Below are positions 48,723 to 61,350 of a DNA stretch of 64,000 nt, piece by piece (within the stretch, counting starts at the first letter, position 1; the number at the start of each line of letters is the position of its first letter). Position numbers and translations under genes: made by a program. The notes beneath the pieces were generated by a model. That model made no database searches and was not told the DNA's origin. It saw nothing but the letters and a program-made list of their open reading frames with translations. This DNA is from Chitinophagales bacterium (GTDB lineage: Bacteria > Bacteroidota > Bacteroidia > Chitinophagales > CAIOSU01), in NCBI GenBank assembly GCA_040877935.1, contig JBBDNB010000026.1, forward strand, positions 1 through 64,000. The letters are read 5' to 3'.

Positions 48723-50501
48723 CTAGTTAATGATTAACTTATTAATTGAGATGCCGGCAATCGTGTAAACCTCAATCAGATAAATTCCGGCTTTAATATC
48801 CAGGTTTAACTGGTATTTTGAAGTATTAAGTCCTTGAACATTCATTAGCTGCTTTCCACTTATACTGGTTATGCTTACCCTTTGAATGTTTTCTCTACCA
48901 GCATCTATTATGATCTGGTTTTCAGCAGGATTAGGGTAAATGAGCATATTGGCATTCACGCCCTTAGCTTCATTGATATTGACAAAATTAATGTTTGTAC
49001 AGTTAGAAATATTAAAACAAGCATTTTCCTCAACTTCTACCGCATAACTTCCATTTTCCGTAGCAGTGTAGAATTGACCTGTAGCCCCTGCTATAGGGCT
49101 ATTCCCATTATCACAATCAATCCACTGATAGTTTAATCCGGCCGGAGTTGCAGTTAAAGTTGTATTTGAAACACTTACAGATACGGAAGGGGCAACACAA
49201 ACTTTTCTGCATGCAGAAGTATCAGCGCACTGGTCAGACACAATAACTGCATAATTGCCAGTTGCTGAGGGAGTATATGAAGAACTATTGGCTCCAGGAA
49301 TAGGTGAGTTACCGTTATTGCAATCAAGCCATTGATAACTCACATTAGAAGCGTTACTGCTAAGAGTTCCGCTATTAACAGTGACTGAGGTGTCCAAATT
49401 ACATTCAGTATAAAACATTGCTATTCTATTTGCTGGAGTACCATTTGCCTCAGTAAATTCACCCCCAACAATTAGTCGGTCACAATCATCTACAACAAGA
49501 GCTTGAACCGAAGCATTCACCCCCATACCTACAGCCGACCAGGATGAACCATCCCATTTGGCCAAATTGTTCACGAATATACCTCCTGCCATACTAAAAT
49601 CTCCGCCAGCATATAGATTTCCCTGGGAGTCAAAGGCCAGGGCAAAACAATCACCATTCAAACCAGAACCCAAAGCTGACCATGTTGTGCCATTCCATAT
49701 AGCCACATGGTTTGCAGAGACGCTTCCCGCTGTTGTGAAATAGCCTCCTGCATATAAATCACCATTTGAAGAGAAAACAAGTGTTTCAGCACCGCCAGGT
49801 AATCCTCCACCAACAGCCGACCAGGATGAACCATTCCATTTAGCAAAATTATTAACAGCTATTCCATCTGCTTCATCAAAACCTCCACTGGCATATAAAT
49901 CACCATTAGAATCAGTTACTAATGCTGTTATAATCCCTACAGCTCCTCCACCTTGTGAATTACTTCTCGTTAAGCCATCTCCTAATGCAGAAATAGTTTG
50001 AGAATTTGTATTCCATTCAAATACCCCTTCATAAGAAATTATGCCATTGTTAAAAAAAGAATTAGTTGTATGACCAACATAGACACTGGAATTGTGTATT
50101 GCAATTGAATAGGAAGTTATATTTGATCCAATAAGCTTAGACCATATATTTCCATCCCATTTTTGTAATAAATCTGCGCTACTATTATTACCTACGGCAA
50201 ATAAATCTCCTCCTATAGATTTCAAACCGAATATTCTACCTCCTGTACTACCTGCACCAAAAGGCGTTCCAACCTGGATCCAGGTATTACCATTCCATTG
50301 AACAACTTTCTCAGTTAACTGCCCACCAGCAAATAAATCTCCTTGCGCATTTATATGTAAAGAGTAACTGCCATCGTTAAATCCATTCCCAATTTGTTCT
50401 GCTGTCCAATTATTATTTTGCGGAATAGGACACTGAGCTTGTATGGACTTTTTCAAAAATACTCCAGCTAAAGGAAGGAGAATAAAAATTAAATACCTCA
50501 T
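48723..50501 (-). CDS. Secreted repeat protein (delta-60/WNG repeats) with Ig-like domains and T9SS sorting tail
   Basis: A 592-residue surface protein with a signal peptide (about 1-23). Residues about 40-370 are propeller-like repeats of the form AKWNGSSWSAVGGGLPGG, each followed by LYAGGYF. Two Ig-like domains follow (YQWLDCNNGNSPIPGANSSS and YQWIDCDNGNSPIAGATGQF), then the T9SS tail (MLIYPNPAENQIIIDAG). I chose the ATG at 50501 (MRYLIFILLP) over 50513. It converges with the frameshifted gene, with 7 nt between stops. Confidence 0.85.
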   Translation of the reverse strand: MRYLIFILLPLAGVFLKKSIQAQCPIPQNNNWTAEQIGNGFNDGSYSLHINAQGDLFAGGQLTEKVVQWNGNTWIQVGTPFGAGSTGGRIFGLKSIGGDLFAVGNNSSADLLQKWDGNIWSKLIGSNITSYSIAIHNSSVYVGHTTNSFFNNGIISYEGVFEWNTNSQTISALGDGLTRSNSQGGGAVGIITALVTDSNGDLYASGGFDEADGIAVNNFAKWNGSSWSAVGGGLPGGAETLVFSSNGDLYAGGYFTTAGSVSANHVAIWNGTTWSALGSGLNGDCFALAFDSQGNLYAGGDFSMAGGIFVNNLAKWDGSSWSAVGMGVNASVQALVVDDCDRLIVGGEFTEANGTPANRIAMFYTECNLDTSVTVNSGTLSSNASNVSYQWLDCNNGNSPIPGANSSSYTPSATGNYAVIVSDQCADTSACRKVCVAPSVSVSVSNTTLTATPAGLNYQWIDCDNGNSPIAGATGQFYTATENGSYAVEVEENACFNISNCTNINFVNINEAKGVNANMLIYPNPAENQIIIDAGRENIQRVSITSISGKQLMNVQGLNTSKYQLNLDIKAGIYLIEVYTIAGISINKLIIN

Positions 50502-50526
50502 AATTAAATACATTTTAAATTAAACA

Positions 50527-51963
50527 TCACTCTTTAATACACCTACAGGAAGTGCCTTTTTTCTTGTTATGGGTCTGGCTATTTAAAAAATCTCCATTGG
50601 ACCAAAGGTTGTAAGTCTTTGCTTCAGTAGCACTTTCCTCAAAATTGGTAAAAAACATATTGGCATGTCCTTTTCCTGTAAAATGTCCGTCATCTTCCCT
50701 GATTCCGGAAGGCACTGCATTAAAACCGGTGCTGTTCGTTGCACCATCGTTTGGCGCATCCCATAAGCTTCTGCTTTTTAAGGGACCTCCTGTGGGTTCG
50801 TCTATCGATTGCAAATGAGTTTTCAAAGTTTGCCAGTCATCTGGTACTGGAACTCGCCATCCATCCGGGCAAATTCCTTTTAAATGGGTAATGGCAAACC
50901 AATTGTAAAGATTGCCGTAAGTCTGTTGGTTAGATATATCATTTCGATAATAGGCATAAGCTCCGCTATTGGTGCTGATCCACGCCAGAGAATCTGAAAC
51001 ATGATCAATGGGAGAGCCATCTTTATATTTCGTGGTTCTTAAGTTTTCAGCAATCCAGCATTGATTACCAATTCTAACTACCGGATAGGAATTACCATCG
51101 GCATCTGTTATGGTTGAAGGACAAGTGATGCTCTCATCCTCATATGGTATTACTTCATTACGTTGAATACAACCGGGAACATCAAAGCTACTGTTGAAGC
51201 GGGACGCGATAATATTATAGATCGTAGGATCATAATTTTGCAACTGTGCCCGTGTAATTATATCATTGCTATTTCCATCCCCTCCCGGAGGGCCAAAAGG
51301 AAAATGCACCTCATAATAAATCATAACACATTCTGCCAGATATTCCTCTTTATTTGTCATTGCATAGGTATTGTTCCAAAGCCCCTGTGACCTGGCATTA
51401 TTGTAGGCACTGCTTAATTCGCTTTCAAAATCACTATCAAGCAAACGCAATCCTGAAATATCAACCATGTGGACCATTTCATGTACCATGATATTGTGGT
51501 TTGGAGAAGGGTTATCTTCTGCAAAACAAAGCAAGCCAGCAGCAGTTGACGCTCCTGCTCCTGGCATATCCCAATAGACACCTATTTCGGAAACTGTAGT
51601 ATTTATAAATTCCGGTAATTCCTGCGCTGTCTTACCAGGTCCAAAAAGGATATAATACTCCCCTCTTTCGATCAATTTGTTTTTTACTTCATCTAAACCC
51701 GTCAACATAAACTCAATGGTTTCATCGCCCACCCTTAATGCTTGTTCAGGCACGCCATCAGGAGCAATCACCGGTATTCCAGTACAATTGATATATTGCG
51801 TATATAAACTGGCATAATTAGCAGAGGCCGGCATGCTTCTCACAGAACAGCTCATTACTTCATTGTTGTCATTGGTTTGTGGTGCATCGGGGTCTTCAGG
51901 ATCTTTTTCGCAAGCCGATAGAATAATCGAGATGGCGATAATTAAATAATGTAAATGCTTCAT
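50527..51963 (-). CDS. Lipoprotein with HExxH motif and C-terminal FISUMP-type domain
   Basis: A 478-residue protein with a lipoprotein signal (IIAISIILSACEKDP, lipobox Cys at about residue 18), predicted to be anchored in the outer membrane. A zinc-protease-like HExxH is visible at MVHEMVHMVD (about residue 156), followed further on by the glutamate-rich NKEEYLAECVMIYYEV, a plausible third ligand. The C-terminal part (about 295-478) matches the FISUMP/major paralogous domain (VRIGNQCWIAENLRT, YGNLYNWFAI, GICPDGWRVPVPDDW). Protease activity is inferred only. Confidence 0.78.
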   Translation of the reverse strand: MKHLHYLIIAISIILSACEKDPEDPDAPQTNDNNEVMSCSVRSMPASANYASLYTQYINCTGIPVIAPDGVPEQALRVGDETIEFMLTGLDEVKNKLIERGEYYILFGPGKTAQELPEFINTTVSEIGVYWDMPGAGASTAAGLLCFAEDNPSPNHNIMVHEMVHMVDISGLRLLDSDFESELSSAYNNARSQGLWNNTYAMTNKEEYLAECVMIYYEVHFPFGPPGGDGNSNDIITRAQLQNYDPTIYNIIASRFNSSFDVPGCIQRNEVIPYEDESITCPSTITDADGNSYPVVRIGNQCWIAENLRTTKYKDGSPIDHVSDSLAWISTNSGAYAYYRNDISNQQTYGNLYNWFAITHLKGICPDGWRVPVPDDWQTLKTHLQSIDEPTGGPLKSRSLWDAPNDGATNSTGFNAVPSGIREDDGHFTGKGHANMFFTNFEESATEAKTYNLWSNGDFLNSQTHNKKKGTSCRCIKE

Positions 51964-52005: not shown

Positions 52006-53358
52006 TTACTGTGGCGTACCGTAAACCACAAAACTGAAACCCTGGTTGGTATCCGTTCCGCTGCCATTTCTGGTTCTTATCGTTATAGTTGTGCTGTTGG
52101 TTGGGTAGTAATTGATAAAACCATACACATTGGTATCCCACATGGTAGCGTTAAACACAATTGCTCCACTGGCAGGGTTATCAAGCACTAAGGTGTATCT
52201 GCCTGTAGCTGTTCGGGTCATGCTTGCTACACCATAAGAATTACTACCTAGATTCCCAAGGTAATCAGCAAAGCCATAAGCAATTGGAGTAGAGTTTCCA
52301 TAGACTGTTCTTGGTTGTGGGTTAGTGGTGTTTTGCTGAATTTTCACCGCTCCATTTACATCTAGTTTTTCCTGAGGATTACTTATACTAAGGCCAACAT
52401 TTCCACTTTTTAAAATAGTGATTGCATCCTGTCTGCTATTTGAGTTTGCCCCTACTCCTACAGCAAATATTCTATCTGTATTATTTCCCTGTGGAGAATA
52501 TTCAGTGGCATACTGACCAATTACAACCTCATTATTTGAAACTGCGCTGTTGCCTATACCAGCTACAAAAGACTGGGTCCCAGAAGCAACATTATCTCTA
52601 CCCGCAGCAAAAGATTGATTCCCTGAAGCAGTATTCCCTCTATTAATTGAAAAGGATTGGCCTCCGGTAGCATTATTTTGAAAGCCCATAGAAATGGAGT
52701 GGTTGGCCGTGGCATTACAGAATCTTCCAGCAGCAAATGAACCATAGCCAGAAACTGTATCATCTAATCCTACCGCTACTGAAGATCCTCCTGTAACAAC
52801 ATTAGAGCTTGAGCCTAAACTTGATTGTCCATTGACTTCAAACTTATGAAAAGGAGCAGCTGTGCCTATGCCCACATTTCCAGCATTCGTATTGTAAATA
52901 TCATTCCCAAAAAGCGTCCAGGGCGAATTACTTCCCAAAACTACTTTGGCAGTATCAGAATACTTTGCATGCATGGCATAAGGCACACTCATAAATTTGG
53001 TGGTGCCCATATCCTGAAAACCATTACCGGTATTCACTTCTACCTGTAAATAATATTCGTGATTGCTCCAGTCGATAGTCGAAAATAATCCACTCAGAGC
53101 AGTTCCTTCGCCAATTACTACATTTACTAATCCGTAATCATTGGTGGTTTTGCTAAAGCTTTCCTGGTAAACAGTAATTCCTGTAGGCAGATCTTCTATG
53201 ACAGTAAAGCGCAAATCTGCTGTAGCATTTTGCAAGATTTCACCACTTGCATTTCGAACCACTGCCTGGTAGTTCATTCCTTCAGGGCTTTGTGAAAAAA
53301 GGGTATTGCTCAAGATTAATAGAGCGATGAGTAGGATAGACGACAAGAAGTTTTTCAT
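52006..53358 (-). CDS. Tail-fibre-like secreted protein with YadA-head-type repeats
   Basis: A 450-residue protein with a signal peptide (about 1-22). The N-terminal domain (SPEGMNYQAVVRNASGEILQ...FMSVPYAMHAKYSDTA) is shared with the gene at 53983-55323. A central region (about 190-290) repeats the YadA-head-like pattern GxxSxAxGxxNxA (SFAAGRDNVASGTQSFVAGI). There is no T9SS sorting tail and no S74 domain, so anchoring or export differ from its neighbours; it may depend on another export route. Confidence 0.78.
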   Translation of the reverse strand: MKNFLSSILLIALLILSNTLFSQSPEGMNYQAVVRNASGEILQNATADLRFTVIEDLPTGITVYQESFSKTTNDYGLVNVVIGEGTALSGLFSTIDWSNHEYYLQVEVNTGNGFQDMGTTKFMSVPYAMHAKYSDTAKVVLGSNSPWTLFGNDIYNTNAGNVGIGTAAPFHKFEVNGQSSLGSSSNVVTGGSSVAVGLDDTVSGYGSFAAGRFCNATANHSISMGFQNNATGGQSFSINRGNTASGNQSFAAGRDNVASGTQSFVAGIGNSAVSNNEVVIGQYATEYSPQGNNTDRIFAVGVGANSNSRQDAITILKSGNVGLSISNPQEKLDVNGAVKIQQNTTNPQPRTVYGNSTPIAYGFADYLGNLGSNSYGVASMTRTATGRYTLVLDNPASGAIVFNATMWDTNVYGFINYYPTNSTTITIRTRNGSGTDTNQGFSFVVYGTPQ

Positions 53359-53408: not shown

Positions 53409-53909
53409 TTAGTCGATTTTCTGAATCTTAATCGTTTTTGAAAACTGTCCCTTTTCATCGTCTATGCGAATGAAGTAGTTGCCTGCCGCATAAGCCGAAA
53501 GGTCAATCTGCTGGCGACTATTGCCCAAAACAGTGATGTTTGATTTTGCTACTGGGTATTGTTTTCCCATTACATCAATTAAGCTGATTTGTAGTTCCAA
53601 CTCTTTGTCCGCATTGAAATCCAGAATCACCATATTGGCCGTTGGGTTGGGATAGGCCTGCATGGAGAAACCAAACTCAGGTTCTTCAATGCCAACCGTA
53701 TTGTCAGAAGCGGGTTGTTGAAAACCTTGCGTAAGAATAACTGAAGCTGATGTGCCTGTTGCAATAACTGTTTCCCCAATAGTGGAAGAAACTTGCAAAT
53801 TGGCTGTTTCAGAATAGCTTCCACTGGATGCGATTACCTGTCTTTCCAGGCTTTGGGCAAATAATGCTACTGGTAAAAGAGCAATGAGTATTACTGTTAT
53901 GTTTTTCAT
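53409..53909 (-). CDS. Small secreted protein with T9SS sorting domain
   Basis: A 166-residue protein: signal peptide (MKNITVILIALLPVALFAQ), a short N-terminal module (RQVIASSGSYSETANLQVSSTIGETVIATG) and a T9SS sorting tail (MQAYPNPTANMVILDFN...DLSAYAAGNYFIRIDDEKGQ). The chosen ATG is 53909, because the longer in-frame start at 54029 lies inside the next gene upstream and lacks a signal. It is sandwiched between the two tail-fibre-like genes. Confidence 0.8.
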   Translation of the reverse strand: MKNITVILIALLPVALFAQSLERQVIASSGSYSETANLQVSSTIGETVIATGTSASVILTQGFQQPASDNTVGIEEPEFGFSMQAYPNPTANMVILDFNADKELELQISLIDVMGKQYPVAKSNITVLGNSRQQIDLSAYAAGNYFIRIDDEKGQFSKTIKIQKID

Positions 53910-53982
53910 GTTTGGTTTTTTTAAAGTAAGAAAGGCAGAACAAGCTGCATCATTACCGCTTGTTTTGCCTATTGTGAAAAGC

Positions 53983-55323
53983 TTATTTTTTTCCTTGAAT
54001 ATCCATTCCCAATTGGGCTTTGATGGCATTTAAATCAGTCAGGAATTGCTGATTTGCTGCTTTTAATTTTTGGTTTTCTGCTTTTAAGGCTTCAATCTGT
54101 TCTTGTTGTTCCTGAACCGCTTTTACCAGAGGCACTGTGAATTCTGCATATCTCAGGCCTAAAATTTCTCCAGACTTATCTATCCCGCTAAAATTATATT
54201 TGGCTTCTTTAGCAGCAGCTTCAACTTCCTGTGCAATAAACCCGCTAAATTGAATTTTTTCAATGTCATATTTACCTTCCCATTGACCTGTCTCTTTAAG
54301 TCCCATTAACTGCTCTTGTTTGTTTACATCGTAATTATAAGTTACAGGACGAAGTGCTTTGATGAAATCTAAGCCAATTACGGTTTCCTGAATATTGTCC
54401 TTCACCCTGCCATCACTAAAAGCGGTCCAGTTTACTTGCCCCCCTATGCTATTGTAGCTTCCTCCACCAATTCTTGCTTTGTTGCTGGCATCTACAGCTG
54501 TGAAATTTCCTATTACAATAGAGTTACTTAAATTATTACTGGTTACACCTGCCAAATGGCCAATTGCAGTTATTCCATCTCCGGTTGTGTTGGTTTCCAT
54601 AGCTCTTGTTCCAATTGCCGTATTTTGAGCACCTGTAGTATTTGATGCGTTAGCTCCTACTCCAAATGCTACATTATCATAACCGGTAGTATTAGCAGCC
54701 ATTCCCCCATCCCCAACTACTGTATTTGTATTTCCTGTTTGTATGGCATTATTTCCAAAAACCAAACTATTGCCACCACTTCCTAAAGTTCTTCCGTTTA
54801 TGGTAATATTTCCAGAAGTAATCTCCCCTGCGACATGTAGTTTATTGTTTGGGCTTGTTGTGCCAATACCCACATTACCACTATTATTGCTGTAAATATT
54901 ATTCCCTGATTTTTCCCAATATGTATTCCCTGCATGAATGGCGTAAGGCACGCTTAGTAATTGCTGTGCGCCTAAATCTTCAAAACCGTTTCCGGTATTA
55001 GCCTCTACCTGTAAAAACTTATCGCCCGAAGTCCAGTCAACACTAGCCATAGAGCCAGATACTACTGTACCAGCACCTATCACATGATTCACTAAGCCAA
55101 ATTGGTTGGGTGTAGCATTTGTAGTCTCCTGATATTCCACCGTACCTGTTGCAGAACCTGTACGGATGGTAAATTGCATTTCAACACTACCTGATGTAAT
55201 CAAATCACCAGATCCATTGCGAACTACAGCCTGATAATTAAAGCCCTCTGGTGCTTGAGCATAAATAAAAGTTGCAGCAAAAATCAATGCCACAGCGAAC
55301 AATAATTTCATTAGATTTTTCAT
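53983..55323 (-). CDS. Tail-fibre-like protein ending in an S74 (endosialidase-type) autochaperone domain
   Basis: A 446-residue protein with a signal peptide (about 1-22), the same N-terminal domain as 52006-53358 (APEGFNYQAVVRNGSGDLI), YadA-head-like repeats (GANASNTTGAQNTAIGTRAMETNTTG), and a C-terminal peptidase S74 intramolecular chaperone: SDGRVKDNIQETVIGLDFIKALRPVTYNYD, ending in a coiled coil (EQIEALKAENQKLKAANQ). In phage tail spikes this domain helps trimerisation and then is cleaved. It is predicted to be trimeric. No T9SS tail. Its promoter region is shared with the two-component system. Confidence 0.82.
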   Translation of the reverse strand: MKNLMKLLFAVALIFAATFIYAQAPEGFNYQAVVRNGSGDLITSGSVEMQFTIRTGSATGTVEYQETTNATPNQFGLVNHVIGAGTVVSGSMASVDWTSGDKFLQVEANTGNGFEDLGAQQLLSVPYAIHAGNTYWEKSGNNIYSNNSGNVGIGTTSPNNKLHVAGEITSGNITINGRTLGSGGNSLVFGNNAIQTGNTNTVVGDGGMAANTTGYDNVAFGVGANASNTTGAQNTAIGTRAMETNTTGDGITAIGHLAGVTSNNLSNSIVIGNFTAVDASNKARIGGGSYNSIGGQVNWTAFSDGRVKDNIQETVIGLDFIKALRPVTYNYDVNKQEQLMGLKETGQWEGKYDIEKIQFSGFIAQEVEAAAKEAKYNFSGIDKSGEILGLRYAEFTVPLVKAVQEQQEQIEALKAENQKLKAANQQFLTDLNAIKAQLGMDIQGKK

Positions 55324-55381
55324 GATAATTTTTTTAATGAATGAATGATGTAAAAATCAAAACATATTAGATGCAATACAA

Positions 55382-55397
55382 TAGTTGGATTCAATGA
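55382..55397. promoter_or_regulatory. Operator candidate 1 (half-degenerate TCATTG-N4-CAATGA)
   Basis: TAGTTGGATTCAATGA: the right half matches the palindrome CAATGA exactly, the left half differs. It lies 16 nt upstream of a near-consensus minus-strand -7 box (TATGTTTTG, 55366-55358) that would serve the S74 gene. Confidence 0.5.
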
Positions 55398-55500
55398 TTT
55401 TCAAATCCGTAAATCTGACAAGCAAATTCAAAAAGTAACTCCTGCCTCCTGCTAACAGTGTGTTTTCAGATTTAATCAGTATTTTGAACACTTTATAGTA

Positions 55501-55516
55501 TCATTGGAATCAATGA
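55501..55516. promoter_or_regulatory. Operator candidate 2 (perfect TCATTG-N4-CAATGA)
   Basis: TCATTGGAATCAATGA is a perfect inverted repeat ending 27 nt upstream of the histidine kinase -7 box (55544-55551), where an activator or repressor would contact the -33 region. Confidence 0.6.
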
Positions 55517-55543
55517 CAACTGCATTAATATTATTCAATGCTT

Positions 55544-55551
55544 TACATTTG
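55544..55551 (+). promoter_or_regulatory. -7 box of the histidine kinase gene
   Basis: TACATTTG is a perfect TAnnTTTG box. It supports the ATG at 55578 as the start of the kinase rather than the TTG at 55560. Confidence 0.5.
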
Positions 55552-55577
55552 CTTCCTGTTTGAACCCAAATAGATTA

Positions 55578-58500
55578 ATGACACTGTATCGTTTCACCCT
55601 TGTACTGATTTTTATACCATTTATAATCAGTGGACAGGTTCTATTGGACACTACTGAGCAGCGCGAAATATACCTGGATCATCTGGGTATTGAGGATGGT
55701 ATGTCACAGGGCATGATCAATGATCTTGTGATTGACCAGGATGGCTATATGTGGATAGCCACTAAAGAAGGGCTCAATCGATACGATGGAAAAAAGTTTA
55801 AGGTTTTTAGGCACAATCCAAAAGACCCATTATCTATATCTGACAATCTTATCACTAGTCTTTTTGTTGATTCCAAAAACAACTTATGGGTAGGTACAGA
55901 TCTCAATGGGCTCAATTTTTTTGATCGCAAAACTGAAAGCTTCAATCATTTCAACACAGATTCTAAACCCAAACAAAAGTTGAGCTCTAGTTCCATTGGA
56001 AAAATTTTTGAAGACCCCAAAGGAAATATCATCATTCAAACCAAGTCAGGGAATGGCTATGACATTTTAGTACCGGATTCTACAAACACTCCAAATAACT
56101 TTAGGATTTACCCCATTCAGAATATTTATCCCGGTCTGAGAAAAGTAACAGGAAAAGACTGTTGTACCAAGCACCTTTATTTTAAATCAAATGGTGAGGC
56201 CTGGTATTATGGTTTGGATTCAGTTTACAGCATACAAAACCCTGAATTGGAAAATGCTTCATATCATTCCTATCCAAATAATATCTCTTCTTCTGAAATC
56301 TATTTTGAAAACCAATTTATATTTGACCCGAAAACAGAAGATTTTTATCTCCTTTCAAACTCCATTATTGAAAAATATGACACAATCTCCAGGCAATTTC
56401 TCCCCTATTTAAAACTGCCCTTAAGACTCACCAATATCCACGACCTTTTTATAGACAACAAGAGCCGCTTGTGGATTGCTTTTAGAAATAACAAATACTT
56501 GAATATCAATTTGCAAGAAAAAAAGCTTGTTTCTTTCATTGCCAATTCAGAAGGATTTAATGAGCAAGGTTTTTGCTGTACTTTTTTTAAGCACCACGAT
56601 CAAAATGATAACCTTTGGATTGGCACAGGAGGTTTTGGAGCATTAAAGTGGTCTTCCGTTTCACAAAAATTTGAAACAATAACTATTAAAAACAATTCTG
56701 CCAATCTTGTTTGGGATTACAGGGTTTCAAAACCTGGATCGAAGGCCGTATTTTCCAAAGATATAAAGGAAAAGTGGGGCAAAATAAAAGATAGCGTTTC
56801 CCTAAAAGCAGGACATCAATTCGCCAGTAGGCAATCAAATATTACAATTGACAATAATGGTTTTATTTATGTCAACTTAATAAACACCAAAAGTGACAGC
56901 AATTTTTTGCTGCAAATTGATACCAATACTTATGGGGTCAATGTGCTCGAAATGCGAACTACGCCTATTGACAAATGGTATTTCACACCTATATTTATTG
57001 ACAAAAAAAACAATATTTGGTACAGCGAGAGAAGCAAGGGGGATTCCTTACAATTATTCAATCATTTGATAGAATCCGATTCAATAATAGAATACACTGT
57101 TCCCGTTAAGCCTCAGGAAAGTGTTTATCGTTTTGTACATGATTGGTACGAAAATAAAAATGGCAGTTTTTGGCTGGGCACCACGCAGGGTCTGTTTCTT
57201 TTCAATCCTGAAAAAAACAAGTGGAAACACTACCAGTATGATCCTTCCAATGACAGCAGCCTTTCGCTCGACATGGTATTAAGCGTATGTCCCGATCCTG
57301 CTAATCCGGAAAAATATATTTGGGCGGGAACCAATGGGAGCGGGTTGAACAGGCTCAATATCAAAACCGGAAATTTTACAATATTCAATGAAGCACAAGG
57401 TTTGCCCAATAATGTGGTCTATGCCATTCAAACTGATCATAAAAACAATCTGTGGTTGAGCACCAACAAGGGATTGAGCCATTTTAATATTGCAGAAAAC
57501 AAGTTTGTAAATTACAATACCAATCATGGTTTAGCTGGGAATGAATTCAATCGCTATGAATTTAGCAAAGCCAGTGATGGCACGCTCTATTTCGGTGGTG
57601 TAAATGGCGTGGTCGCCTTTCATCCCAAATATTTTTATACGGATTCCACCTATTCTAACGCCATCATCAATCAGTTTAAAATCCTGAATACTAGTGTTAA
57701 TTATAAAGACACTTTGATTTTTGAAAATGAACGCTTTTATCTAAAAAAGCCAATAGAGCAGCTCGAAAAACTGGAGCTCAATTACAATCACAGAATGTTT
57801 TCATTTGGATTTTCGGTATTGGATTTTACGGCTCAAAAGTCCAATAAGATCAAATACAAATTAGAAGGGTTTCACAAAGACTGGATCGAGGCCGATATCA
57901 ATCACGAAGCTACTTTTACCAATTTAGATCCTGGATATTATACCCTGAAAGTATTGGGCTATAATAGCAGTCATCAATGGAGTGAAAAGCCCAGAACCCT
58001 TCAACTGACCATACTCCCGCCCTGGTGGGGCACCTGGTGGTTTCGGGGTTTTATGGTTTTCCTGTTCGCAGGAATTTTGTACTCCATATACCGATACAGG
58101 CTGGGCTATGTTTTAAGGATGGAAAGGATGCGCAACCAAATCGCCCAGGATCTGCACGATGATATTGGCTCCACGCTCAGCAGTATTTCCGTTTACAGCA
58201 CGGCCATTCAAAAGTCTGCAAACCAACTCCCCGAAAAAGTAAATCATATTTTGGGGAAAATAATAGAAGGCACTACAGAAACCATGGAGCGCATGAACGA
58301 TATGGTCTGGGCCATTAAAGCCGATAATGATACTTTCAAGCAAGTGATTTTGAGAATGTATGCGCTAGCCGTGGATATTACAGAAGTACAGGGTATTCAA
58401 CTGCAATTCAATGCAGATGAAGCATCTGAGAATATTGAGATGAATATGCTGGAACGCAAAAATATTTACCTGATTTACAAAGAAGCGCTGAACAATACCA

Positions 58501-58727
58501 TCAAATATGCCCAATGCGATATCATTGAAATCAATGTGCAGAGCATTGACCAAAAATTGCACATAGAAATTAAAGACAACGGCATTGGTTTCGAGACCGG
58601 AAAAAACACCTACAATATGGGTGGCAACGGAATTGCGGGGATGCAAAAAAGGGCTCAGGAAATAGGAGCAAAGCTCAATATTCAATCAAAAATCAATAAC
58701 GGGACCACCATTCAGATCATTTTTTGA
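55578..58727 (+). CDS. Two-component-regulator propeller sensor histidine kinase
   Basis: A 1049-residue membrane sensor. After a signal/first helix, the periplasmic part (about 25-720) consists of two-component-propeller repeats (DQDGYMWIATKEGLNRYDG, DSKNNLWVGTDLNGLNFFD, HKNNLWLSTNKGLSHFN) and a Y_Y_Y domain (about 725-820). One membrane helix (about 830-848) leads to a HisKA_3 domain with the phospho-acceptor H860 in QDLHDDIGSTLSS and a HATPase_c (NNTIKYAQ, DNGIGF, GGNGIAGMQKRAQ). The response regulator follows 61 nt downstream. Confidence 0.92.
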   Translation: MTLYRFTLVLIFIPFIISGQVLLDTTEQREIYLDHLGIEDGMSQGMINDLVIDQDGYMWIATKEGLNRYDGKKFKVFRHNPKDPLSISDNLITSLFVDSKNNLWVGTDLNGLNFFDRKTESFNHFNTDSKPKQKLSSSSIGKIFEDPKGNIIIQTKSGNGYDILVPDSTNTPNNFRIYPIQNIYPGLRKVTGKDCCTKHLYFKSNGEAWYYGLDSVYSIQNPELENASYHSYPNNISSSEIYFENQFIFDPKTEDFYLLSNSIIEKYDTISRQFLPYLKLPLRLTNIHDLFIDNKSRLWIAFRNNKYLNINLQEKKLVSFIANSEGFNEQGFCCTFFKHHDQNDNLWIGTGGFGALKWSSVSQKFETITIKNNSANLVWDYRVSKPGSKAVFSKDIKEKWGKIKDSVSLKAGHQFASRQSNITIDNNGFIYVNLINTKSDSNFLLQIDTNTYGVNVLEMRTTPIDKWYFTPIFIDKKNNIWYSERSKGDSLQLFNHLIESDSIIEYTVPVKPQESVYRFVHDWYENKNGSFWLGTTQGLFLFNPEKNKWKHYQYDPSNDSSLSLDMVLSVCPDPANPEKYIWAGTNGSGLNRLNIKTGNFTIFNEAQGLPNNVVYAIQTDHKNNLWLSTNKGLSHFNIAENKFVNYNTNHGLAGNEFNRYEFSKASDGTLYFGGVNGVVAFHPKYFYTDSTYSNAIINQFKILNTSVNYKDTLIFENERFYLKKPIEQLEKLELNYNHRMFSFGFSVLDFTAQKSNKIKYKLEGFHKDWIEADINHEATFTNLDPGYYTLKVLGYNSSHQWSEKPRTLQLTILPPWWGTWWFRGFMVFLFAGILYSIYRYRLGYVLRMERMRNQIAQDLHDDIGSTLSSISVYSTAIQKSANQLPEKVNHILGKIIEGTTETMERMNDMVWAIKADNDTFKQVILRMYALAVDITEVQGIQLQFNADEASENIEMNMLERKNIYLIYKEALNNTIKYAQCDIIEINVQSIDQKLHIEIKDNGIGFETGKNTYNMGGNGIAGMQKRAQEIGAKLNIQSKINNGTTIQIIF

Positions 58728-58736
58728 ATGATATTT

Positions 58737-58752
58737 TCATTGGATTCAATGA
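58737..58752. promoter_or_regulatory. Operator candidate 3 (perfect TCATTG-N4-CAATGA)
   Basis: TCATTGGATTCAATGA, a perfect inverted repeat, 24 nt upstream of the -7 box of the response regulator gene. It repeats the spacing seen for the kinase gene (27 nt). Confidence 0.6.
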
Positions 58753-58776
58753 TATGAAATCCGATATTTTGTTCTT

Positions 58777-58784
58777 TATATTTG
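58777..58784 (+). promoter_or_regulatory. -7 box of the response-regulator gene, 4 nt before the start codon
   Basis: TATATTTG, a perfect TAnnTTTG box ending 4 nt before the ATG at 58789. As for thyA, this predicts a leaderless mRNA. Confidence 0.5.
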
Positions 58785-58788
58785 GCTT

Positions 58789-59427
58789 ATGGATATCAAA
58801 GTGATTTTATTCGATGACAATGAAAAGCGCAGGGAAAGCTTGCAAATGCTTATTGAGCTAATGGACAATATGGAATTTGCAGGTGCTTTTCCAGATTGCA
58901 GACATGTGCTGAAAAATATGGAAGATACCCAGCCCGATGTGGTTTTGATGGATATTGACATGCCCTTTGTAAATGGCATTGAAGGGGTAAAACTCATTCG
59001 GCAGCAGTATCAGGATGTAAAAATACTGATGCAAACGGTTTTTGAAGAGGATGATAAAGTGTTTGCCGCCATTTGTGCCGGGGCAGATGGGTATATCCTA
59101 AAGCAAACCAATCCCCTGAAATTAATGGATGCCATAAAAGAAGTGCACGAAGGCGGTGCGCCCATGACGCCCAATATTGCCCGAAAAGTATTGCAATATT
59201 TCAATAAGTCCAATGCCTGTAAAGAGCAAACTTTTGAATTGACCAATAGAGAACTGGAAATCCTGGAGCACCTTGTAAAAGGCAACAGCTATAATATGAT
59301 TGCTACCGCTTGTGGCATCTCTTATGCTACGGTCAATTCGCATATTTCAAAGATTTACAAAAAACTCAAGGTAAAATCTTCGGCAGGTGCTGTTTCGATT
59401 GCAGTTAGAGAAGGCTTGGTGGGGTAA
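58789..59427 (+). CDS. NarL/FixJ-type response regulator
   Basis: A 212-residue regulator. The receiver domain (about 4-120) has the acidic pocket D9/D10, the phospho-acceptor D55 (VVLMD), a Thr in QTVF and the Lys in GYILKQ. The C-terminal LuxR-type HTH (about 145-208) is LTNRELEILEHLVKGNSYNMIATACGISYATVNSHISKIYKKL. It is the cognate partner of the upstream propeller kinase. LuxR-type domains bind short inverted repeats, and it could bind the 16-bp palindromes listed above; this is inference. Confidence 0.95.
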   Translation: MDIKVILFDDNEKRRESLQMLIELMDNMEFAGAFPDCRHVLKNMEDTQPDVVLMDIDMPFVNGIEGVKLIRQQYQDVKILMQTVFEEDDKVFAAICAGADGYILKQTNPLKLMDAIKEVHEGGAPMTPNIARKVLQYFNKSNACKEQTFELTNRELEILEHLVKGNSYNMIATACGISYATVNSHISKIYKKLKVKSSAGAVSIAVREGLVG

Positions 59428-60304: not shown

Positions 60305-60901
60305 TCATGATCTTGCGAATTTTAGCAAGGCTTGAAAATTACCATTATCTGCTGTTTTTACTGCGTGGAGATAGGCTTGTCGAGCTTCATTTGTTTTGGA
60401 GAACTCAACAGCTCCCCAAGAAAAGATTTCTTGTCCAAAGATTTTCTCAATGATAATATCCCCCATCAATCGGCTATGCCGACCATTGCCATTTGGGAAA
60501 CAGTGAATGCTCACAATTCTATGCTTAAAACGAATGGCCATTTCATCCGGGAGATAAGTTTTGTTTTCAATCCAAAATAGTCCGTCATTACAAAGCGTAT
60601 GCAGTTGTGTGGGAATAAGATGCTTGTCAACACCAAGATTTTTATTTGTTTTTCTAAAGTTCCCCGCCCATTGCCAGACTTCTCCAAACATTCTTTTGTG
60701 AAGATTACAAATGAATTTTTCTGACAAAATCCTTTCTTTTTTCAATGATATAGAAAATGCCCATTGCATGGCATCTTCAATATTTTGCTGCTCAAACTCG
60801 TCCAGTTCACCTTGTGTTGAAATACTGGGAATCAATAAGCCTTCTTTTTCATCTTCATCCAAAGGCGTTTGTCCGTGAATTTCATTGAAATTTAATCCCA
60901 T
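60305..60901 (-). CDS. Mobile mystery protein B (Fic-domain protein)
   Basis: A 198-residue protein with a Fic domain, which in this family transfers AMP or a related group to target proteins. The catalytic loop is H133-C-F-P-N-G-N-G-R-H-S-R144 (canonical HPFxxGNGRxxR); the Asp/Glu usually found before GNGR is Asn here and the Pro is Cys. Activity is therefore uncertain. It forms a conserved pair with the upstream HTH gene (10-nt overlap), as in known mobile mystery A/B pairs, thought to behave like addiction modules. Confidence 0.92.
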   Translation of the reverse strand: MGLNFNEIHGQTPLDEDEKEGLLIPSISTQGELDEFEQQNIEDAMQWAFSISLKKERILSEKFICNLHKRMFGEVWQWAGNFRKTNKNLGVDKHLIPTQLHTLCNDGLFWIENKTYLPDEMAIRFKHRIVSIHCFPNGNGRHSRLMGDIIIEKIFGQEIFSWGAVEFSKTNEARQAYLHAVKTADNGNFQALLKFARS

Positions 60902-61350
60902 AGTGCTTTTGGTATTTCCCTTTTCAATTCGGCAGTTCTTTCTTCTATAGCATTTTTAATGCGCTTTTCGGTGTTTTCCTGATCTTCCAATTTCATTGTA
61001 TTAGAAGTTCTGGAAACAATTTTGGTAGCCAGCACGCGTGCTCTTTTCTCGATTAAAGCATCCAAAGAACCATCCTTTGGCACAAGTCCATAGACCAGTT
61101 CCATCTCTAATACTTTAGCAGTATCGCGAAGGCTTTTAAGGGTGATGTTTCCTTCTCTCTCACGTTGTTCAATCTCTCTCGCACTCTGTTTGGTTATGGA
61201 GAGTTTGTCCGCAAGTTGTTGTAACGAAATACCTAAGGATACACGTACAGCTTTTAGCCAACCCGTATCTGGTACTGCGACTTTTTTAGCTGCTGTAAAC
61301 CCTTTGAGCTTTAGCTCTAATTGTTCAATTTGTAGCTTCTTTCTGTTCAT
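60892..61350 (-). CDS. Mobile mystery protein A (XRE-family HTH regulator)
   Basis: A 152-residue DNA-binding protein with a Cro/C1-type helix-turn-helix at about 32-85 (WLKAVRVSLGISLQQLADKLSITKQSAREIEQRE). The characteristic continuation ITLKSLRDTAKVLEMELVYGLVPKDGSLDAL supports mobile mystery A specifically. A charged C-terminal helix follows. It probably represses its own operon through the three operators at 61354-61438 and may act as antitoxin to the Fic protein; both are inference. Its last codons overlap the mmpB start by 10 nt. Confidence 0.92.
   Translation of the reverse strand: MNRKKLQIEQLELKLKGFTAAKKVAVPDTGWLKAVRVSLGISLQQLADKLSITKQSAREIEQREREGNITLKSLRDTAKVLEMELVYGLVPKDGSLDALIEKRARVLATKIVSRTSNTMKLEDQENTEKRIKNAIEERTAELKREIPKALWD

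Follow-up and report, generated by a model that had tools for sequence, protein, structure and literature searches.

Around the genes of a two-component system, in a stretch of 64 kb that we refer to as the window, the palindrome TCATTG-N4-CAATGA recurs upstream of the kinase gene, of the regulator gene, and of a divergently transcribed surface-protein gene. We asked whether this palindrome is the operator of the regulator, through which the system would control its own genes and the neighboring surface operon, as had been proposed in an earlier reading made from the sequence alone (the sequence-only reading).

The palindromes and the genes beside them

The sequence-only reading had placed perfect copies at 55501–55516 and 58737–58752 and a half-degenerate copy at 55382–55397. 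Both perfect copies were exact on checking, and the half-degenerate one matched at 10 of 12 positions. O1 (55501–55516, TCATTGGAATCAATGA) lies 5′ of the kinase gene; O2 (58737–58752, TCATTGGATTCAATGA) lies 5′ of the regulator gene, and this site with its spacing is repeated at 13 other regulators. O3 (55379–55397 on the minus strand, TCATTGAATCCAACTATTG) agreed at 14 of 15 positions with TCATTG-N4-CAACGATTG, the consensus of the site nearest the surface gene in relatives, where it reads toward that gene. As O3 is the variant that relatives use for the surface gene, it is not merely a degenerate copy; the palindrome observation was confirmed and had, in fact, been understated. The half-sites of the palindrome are 10 bp apart, which is one helical turn. 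O3 was the sole match of at least 13 of 15 positions to the surface-side consensus in the window. Matches to the palindrome with two or fewer mismatches numbered 19 in the window relative to 6.7 expected, a figure which, as most lie in coding sequence, is no evidence on its own; an extra near-palindrome was seen at 58522, within the kinase gene. A similarity (ATGAT followed by AAATCCG) that had been noted after the sites lying first and third in order of position was real in the window but was not seen in relatives. AAATCCG follows the palindrome at both O3 (55382–55407, TTGGATTCAATGATtttcAAATCCG) and O2 (58738–58762, TTGGATTCAATGATatgAAATCCG), and may stem from a local duplication or form an additional half-site (GGATT...AATCC).

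The sensor histidine kinase (55578–58727, plus strand, 1049 aa) has, in order, an N-terminal hydrophobic stretch, a Reg_prop propeller, Y_Y_Y, one membrane helix, HisKA_3 (2e-10; LHDDIG, His860) and HATPase_c (8.3e-09), an order that predicts a periplasmic sensor. The proposal that the propeller senses an extracellular cue is an inference from this domain order; with a periplasmic propeller, a glycan in the periplasm or an envelope signal could be the cue, which need not be strictly extracellular. The nearest solved structures were those of HTCS sensors for the sensor half (4a2l, E 1e-80) and DesK and VraS for the kinase half. The kinase gene adjoins that of a NarL/VraR-type response regulator (58789–59427, plus strand, 212 aa), an adjacency also kept in relatives. 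The regulator consists of a receiver (Pfam Response_reg, 7.8e-22) and a GerE helix-turn-helix (ISYATVNSHISKIY; 5.8e-17), with VraR (5hev) and NarL (1a04) as its closest solved structures.

On the other side of O1 and O3, all on the minus strand, the first divergent gene (53983–55323) encodes a secreted fibre-like protein with an FNYQAVVRN N-terminal domain and a C-terminal S74 chaperone (Peptidase_S74, 1.7e-10, with the motif SDxxxK present as SDGRVK); the N-terminal domain matched MAT_N NF053851 with an E value of 2.2e-07 and 30.8 bits, below the curated cut-off of 60. It is followed by genes for a T9SS type A sorting-tail protein (53409–54029, the start being probably at 53909, residue 41 of the ORF), a second FNYQAVVRN protein with a weak MAT_N match (52006–53358), a putative lipoprotein with a Fib_succ_major/FISUMP domain (50527–51963) and, last in the same-strand series, another T9SS type A sorting-tail protein (48723–50513). 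The final four genes are separated by only 13 to 50 bp, which suggests a single operon.

Occurrence in the genome and in relatives

The sequence-only reading had allowed that the palindrome might prove common and random, and this was not borne out. In the 4.03-Mb genome (63 contigs) there were four exact copies, namely O1, O2 and two within ORFs, relative to a chance expectation under a first-order Markov model of about 1.05 for the whole genome and, for the pair of short gaps that hold O1 and O2, about 8e-5; O1 and O2 were the only exact intergenic copies. About half of the 52 one-mismatch sites in the genome were placed against ORFs, together with 15-mer matches having two or fewer mismatches; among those placed away from the locus one was intergenic and the others were within ORFs. 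When the surface-side consensus was searched in the genome with as many as two mismatches allowed, the 30 best matches included four intergenic ones, these being O1, O2, O3 and one unrelated site, and O3 was the only intergenic match with a single mismatch among these 30. The pattern TTGRWTCAATGA, whose spacer is one base too short, carries no information on the sites. A search for enrichment before surface-protein genes, suggested with the original proposal, yielded none beyond the locus in the window's genome. We rejected a genome-wide regulon in this genome, the other near matches that were placed lying within ORFs except for two, which occupy gaps that lack the promoter pattern; as judged from its sites, the circuit here is local, not genome-wide.

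Conservation before orthologues, which had been put forward as a check, was strong. Full-length relatives of the kinase, about 29–37% identical, turned up among GTDB genomes in Flavobacteriales MAGs and elsewhere; the orthologous kinases were about 30–37% identical to that of the window, and the regulators adjoining them about 56–64% identical to the window's regulator. The palindrome was present before the orthologous regulator in 14 cases from 13 genomes and two orders, 13 of them exact and one matching at 11 of 12 positions. These genomes range from 38 to 68% GC, the palindrome being kept even at 58–68% GC, and three belong to the window's own order. In each of two genomes of the same order (5.2 and 5.5 Mb) exact copies numbered just two, the kinase and the regulator being preceded by one apiece. 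In 12 genomes of relatives the palindrome occurred 28 times and a reversed control pattern not once. Before the kinase it was exact in 10 of 13 listed instances, the window included, the other three matching at 11 of 12 positions. The palindrome was not present upstream of regulators below about 56% identity, and in the window's GTDB family the system was found in the window's genome only; kinase homologues of that family (G001 and G003–G005; 23–27% identity overall) had no regulator match and were not counted as orthologues. An order-wide 19-mer search found system sites only in the three genomes with an orthologous regulator, the remaining matches being without TTTG at the fixed offset and mostly within ORFs. 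In a looser degenerate-site search of nine GC-rich relatives, the extra matches away from system and surface genes were likewise mostly within ORFs.

The gap between kinase and surface gene contained paired sites in relatives, 32–34 bp or about three helical turns apart in five loci (L060, L064, L070, L071, and L072) and 41–42 bp or about four turns apart in four (L065, L180, L181, and L182, the spacing in L182 having been read off the printed sequence). The distance from the surface-side site to the TTTG of the surface gene's −7 box was one and the same in 12 of 17 distinct loci (13 of 18 rows, L249 and L064 being overlapping contig ends), and no second offset was common to two of these loci. 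O1 is predicted to serve the divergent surface operon as well, as its distal site. The same arrangement of surface-side site and TTTG was also found in one genome (G064, L177) before a separate secreted-protein gene and, in a looser form, in another (G066, L171) before an FNYQAVIRN gene. The latter MAG has at least three paralogous systems of this kinase and regulator family (L071, L066, and L171), and additional exact operators stand before other secreted-protein genes there (L168, L170, and L171). In G064 the end of L249 and the start of L064 (contigs C186 and C238) have the same operator and the same start of a divergent gene, which makes it probable that the system there adjoins a cluster of surface-protein genes bearing another pair of operators.

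Wherever the divergent gene could be read, it encoded a predicted secreted surface protein, the family of which varied: S74/FNYQAVVRN in the window, FNYQ with LVIVD-like repeats read by eye (L060), FNYQ with a sub-threshold Lcl_C match (L068), GEVED (L070 and, by resemblance, L249 of G064), RCC1 with a sub-threshold SprB match (L065), DUF5122 (L062), a T9SS tail (L061), and S74-like repeats without a Pfam match (L180 and L181). From these genes the switch appears to be retained while the displayed protein swaps.

Carriers of the palindrome clustered on the regulator tree, where its distribution required 3 changes relative to a mean of 12.3 in shuffles, none of 500 shuffles being as low, and the carriers did not form one perfect clade. 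The recognition helix region of carriers was mostly Y-[A/P]-T-V-N, with S187 in 12 of 14 and H188 in 13 of 14, the window having Lys188; in non-carriers residues 187 and 188, which lie in or beside the recognition helix, were mostly K, R, or N. Four sister paralogues (L062, L063, L066, and L067) have helices with SYSTVN or SSSTVN and R or S at 188, and at the same promoter position they have an altered, weaker palindrome of CCATTGG..CCAAyGG-like form (e.g., CCATTGGTTCCAACGG), which makes coevolution of operator and helix possible in this group.

Promoter geometry and the probable role of the palindrome

The predicted −7 boxes of the kinase promoter (55544–55551, plus strand, TACATTTG) and of the regulator promoter (58777–58784, plus strand, TATATTTG) lie 27 nt past O1 and 24 nt past O2, distances which the sequence-only reading had given correctly. 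With the Bacteroidota −7 consensus TAnnTTTG, numbered from T at −12 to G at −5 (PMC6847099), +1 would fall on the A of the regulator's ATG at 58789, so that a leaderless mRNA is predicted. In 11 of the 14 carriers, read by eye, the regulator promoter consisted of the palindrome, 22–24 nt, a TAnnTTTG-like box, 4 nt, and ATG, the last distance being exactly that expected of a leaderless mRNA. The regulator mRNA is apparently leaderless; in Flavobacterium psychrophilum 5.5% of mRNAs are (PMC9723704). Two relatives (L059 and L060), which may have lost the leaderless start, have ACG, not ATG, at +1 after a conserved −7 box and a regulator start about 40 nt downstream. On the kinase side the distance from palindrome to −7 box varied among loci (21, 22, 27, or 29 nt), and in several loci no −7 box was found there. 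For the surface operon a possible −7 box (55358–55365, minus strand, ATGTTTTG) was a weak assignment. O3 lies 16 nt from the nearest TTTG in the window versus 23 nt in relatives, and O1 and O3 are 119 bp apart versus 32 or 42 bp; with this atypical spacing, control of the S74 operon by the regulator is no more than probable, and the operon's promoter may be built differently.

The reading that we favor, and consider highly likely from the arrangement and conservation of the sites, is that the palindrome would be the operator of the regulator encoded at 58789–59427, an autoregulated activator which would also drive the adjacent surface operon. One operator stands before the system's own genes and before the presumed target, if O3 is counted as the conserved variant, and with a common palindrome at nearly fixed positions in relatives from two orders, it is very probable that the sensor governs its own expression as well as surface display. 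The wiring proposed in the sequence-only reading is supported by these conserved sites, except that no genome-wide surface regulon was found in the window's genome. We propose that the periplasmic propeller-type kinase would phosphorylate the regulator, a dimer of which would bind TCATTG-N4-CAATGA. At the regulator promoter the operator is centered near −44/−45, where a −33 element would otherwise start; the dimer bound there, just 5′ of and replacing that element, would recruit RNA polymerase. The regulator would in this way raise its own synthesis from its own, apparently leaderless, promoter, the kinase would be raised from O1, and the O1/O3 pair would turn on the divergent surface operon.

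The regulator might instead bind the palindrome and repress the three promoters, phosphorylated or not (negative autoregulation), since a dimer bound at the site, right beside the core promoter, could hinder polymerase, and AT-rich relatives have a TTG directly past the site that could be a −33 element. We consider this unlikely, as the site lies 5′ of the −7 box, not over it, at a nearly constant position of about −44, and as the promoters of GC-rich relatives, with no −33-like element behind the regulator site, would need help. Operators near −44 are typical of class II activation. A somewhat different question is whether activation reaches the surface genes at all. O3 deviates at one position from the relatives' consensus and its promoter spacing is 7 nt off, as if O1 and O2 served autoregulation only and O3 were a relic, leaving the S74 operon uncontrolled in the window's organism; to this we give a small, appreciable chance, as O3, the sole intergenic one-mismatch match among the best 30 placed in the genome, stands at the expected position and orientation with its strong half intact.

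As binding of the palindrome by the encoded regulator is a prediction, another, unlinked DNA-binding protein might recognize it and co-regulate the locus. Such a protein is very improbable, given that in two orders the palindrome goes with the regulator orthologue, more distant regulators having none before them, that two genomes have palindromes, two each, at the system locus only, that carriers and non-carriers have different recognition helices, and that the sister paralogues have an altered site at the same position. Nor is the element likely to act as RNA: although O2 lies between co-oriented genes, so that its arms could pair in a read-through transcript as a hairpin between kinase and regulator genes, the arms are conserved as letters and not just as pairing, the extended form (TCATTGGnnCCAATGA) has a loop of 2 nt only, and the same element occurs in divergent promoter regions, 5′ of the predicted starts. 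We rejected this reading, whose chance appears negligible, on the letter conservation of the arms. The preferred reading remains that of a DNA operator bound by the linked regulator as an activator.

Relation to known systems

Like NarL/VraR/LiaR-type systems, that of the window would combine a receiver-GerE regulator with a dyad operator and autoregulation, and its HisKA_3/HATPase kinase resembles DesK, VraS, and NarX; whereas its sensor is the Bacteroidota propeller/Y_Y_Y domain. For systems of that type we found no description of this operator sequence or of the divergent surface cargo. With Bacteroides HTCS such as BT4663 it shares the periplasmic Reg_prop/Y_Y_Y sensor (the match to 4a2l above); in contrast to HTCS, kinase and regulator are separate and not one polypeptide, the regulator is of the GerE type, and a surface-fibre operon takes the place of a polysaccharide utilisation locus as neighbor. 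The first divergent protein resembles the Bdellovibrio MAT fibre proteins (PMC10769870) in its signal peptide, its C-terminal S74 with SDxxxK, and the weak, below-cut-off NF053851 similarity of its N-terminal domain, and differs in being from Bacteroidota, with T9SS-type neighbors; it is a putative trimer fibre. The −7 boxes of the kinase and regulator promoters resemble those of Bacteroidota sigma-A promoters (TTTG/TAnnTTTG; PMC6847099, PMC9723704), from which these promoters differ in that the operator fills the −33 region and the regulator mRNA is predicted to be leaderless.

The open-access literature on the palindrome, on Reg_prop/NarL systems, and on autoregulated inverted repeats in Flavobacterium contained no account of the system. 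Tentatively, and with a little less than even confidence, we suggest that it represents a widespread, undescribed Bacteroidota module in which a split HTCS-like sensor and a self-feeding NarL regulator, with a leaderless, operator-driven promoter, are joined to an interchangeable surface-protein neighbor (S74/MAT-like fibre, GEVED, RCC1/SprB-like, or DUF5122). To our knowledge, few Bacteroidota two-component operators are known outside polysaccharide utilisation. Here the regulator, the exact operator, the promoter geometry, and the likely target (surface fibres or adhesins) could be read by conservation alone, from 38 to 68% GC, offering a direct handle on how these bacteria might choose the surface proteins that they display. 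The system also offers, among organisms in which leaderless mRNAs are uncommon, a predicted leaderless promoter that is open to test.

Beyond the regulator gene, small adjoining genes on the minus strand (60305–61350) encode an HTH protein and a Fic-like protein (HCFPNGNGRHSR), a pair resembling, in its predicted products, a 'mobile mystery protein' or toxin-antitoxin-type pair.
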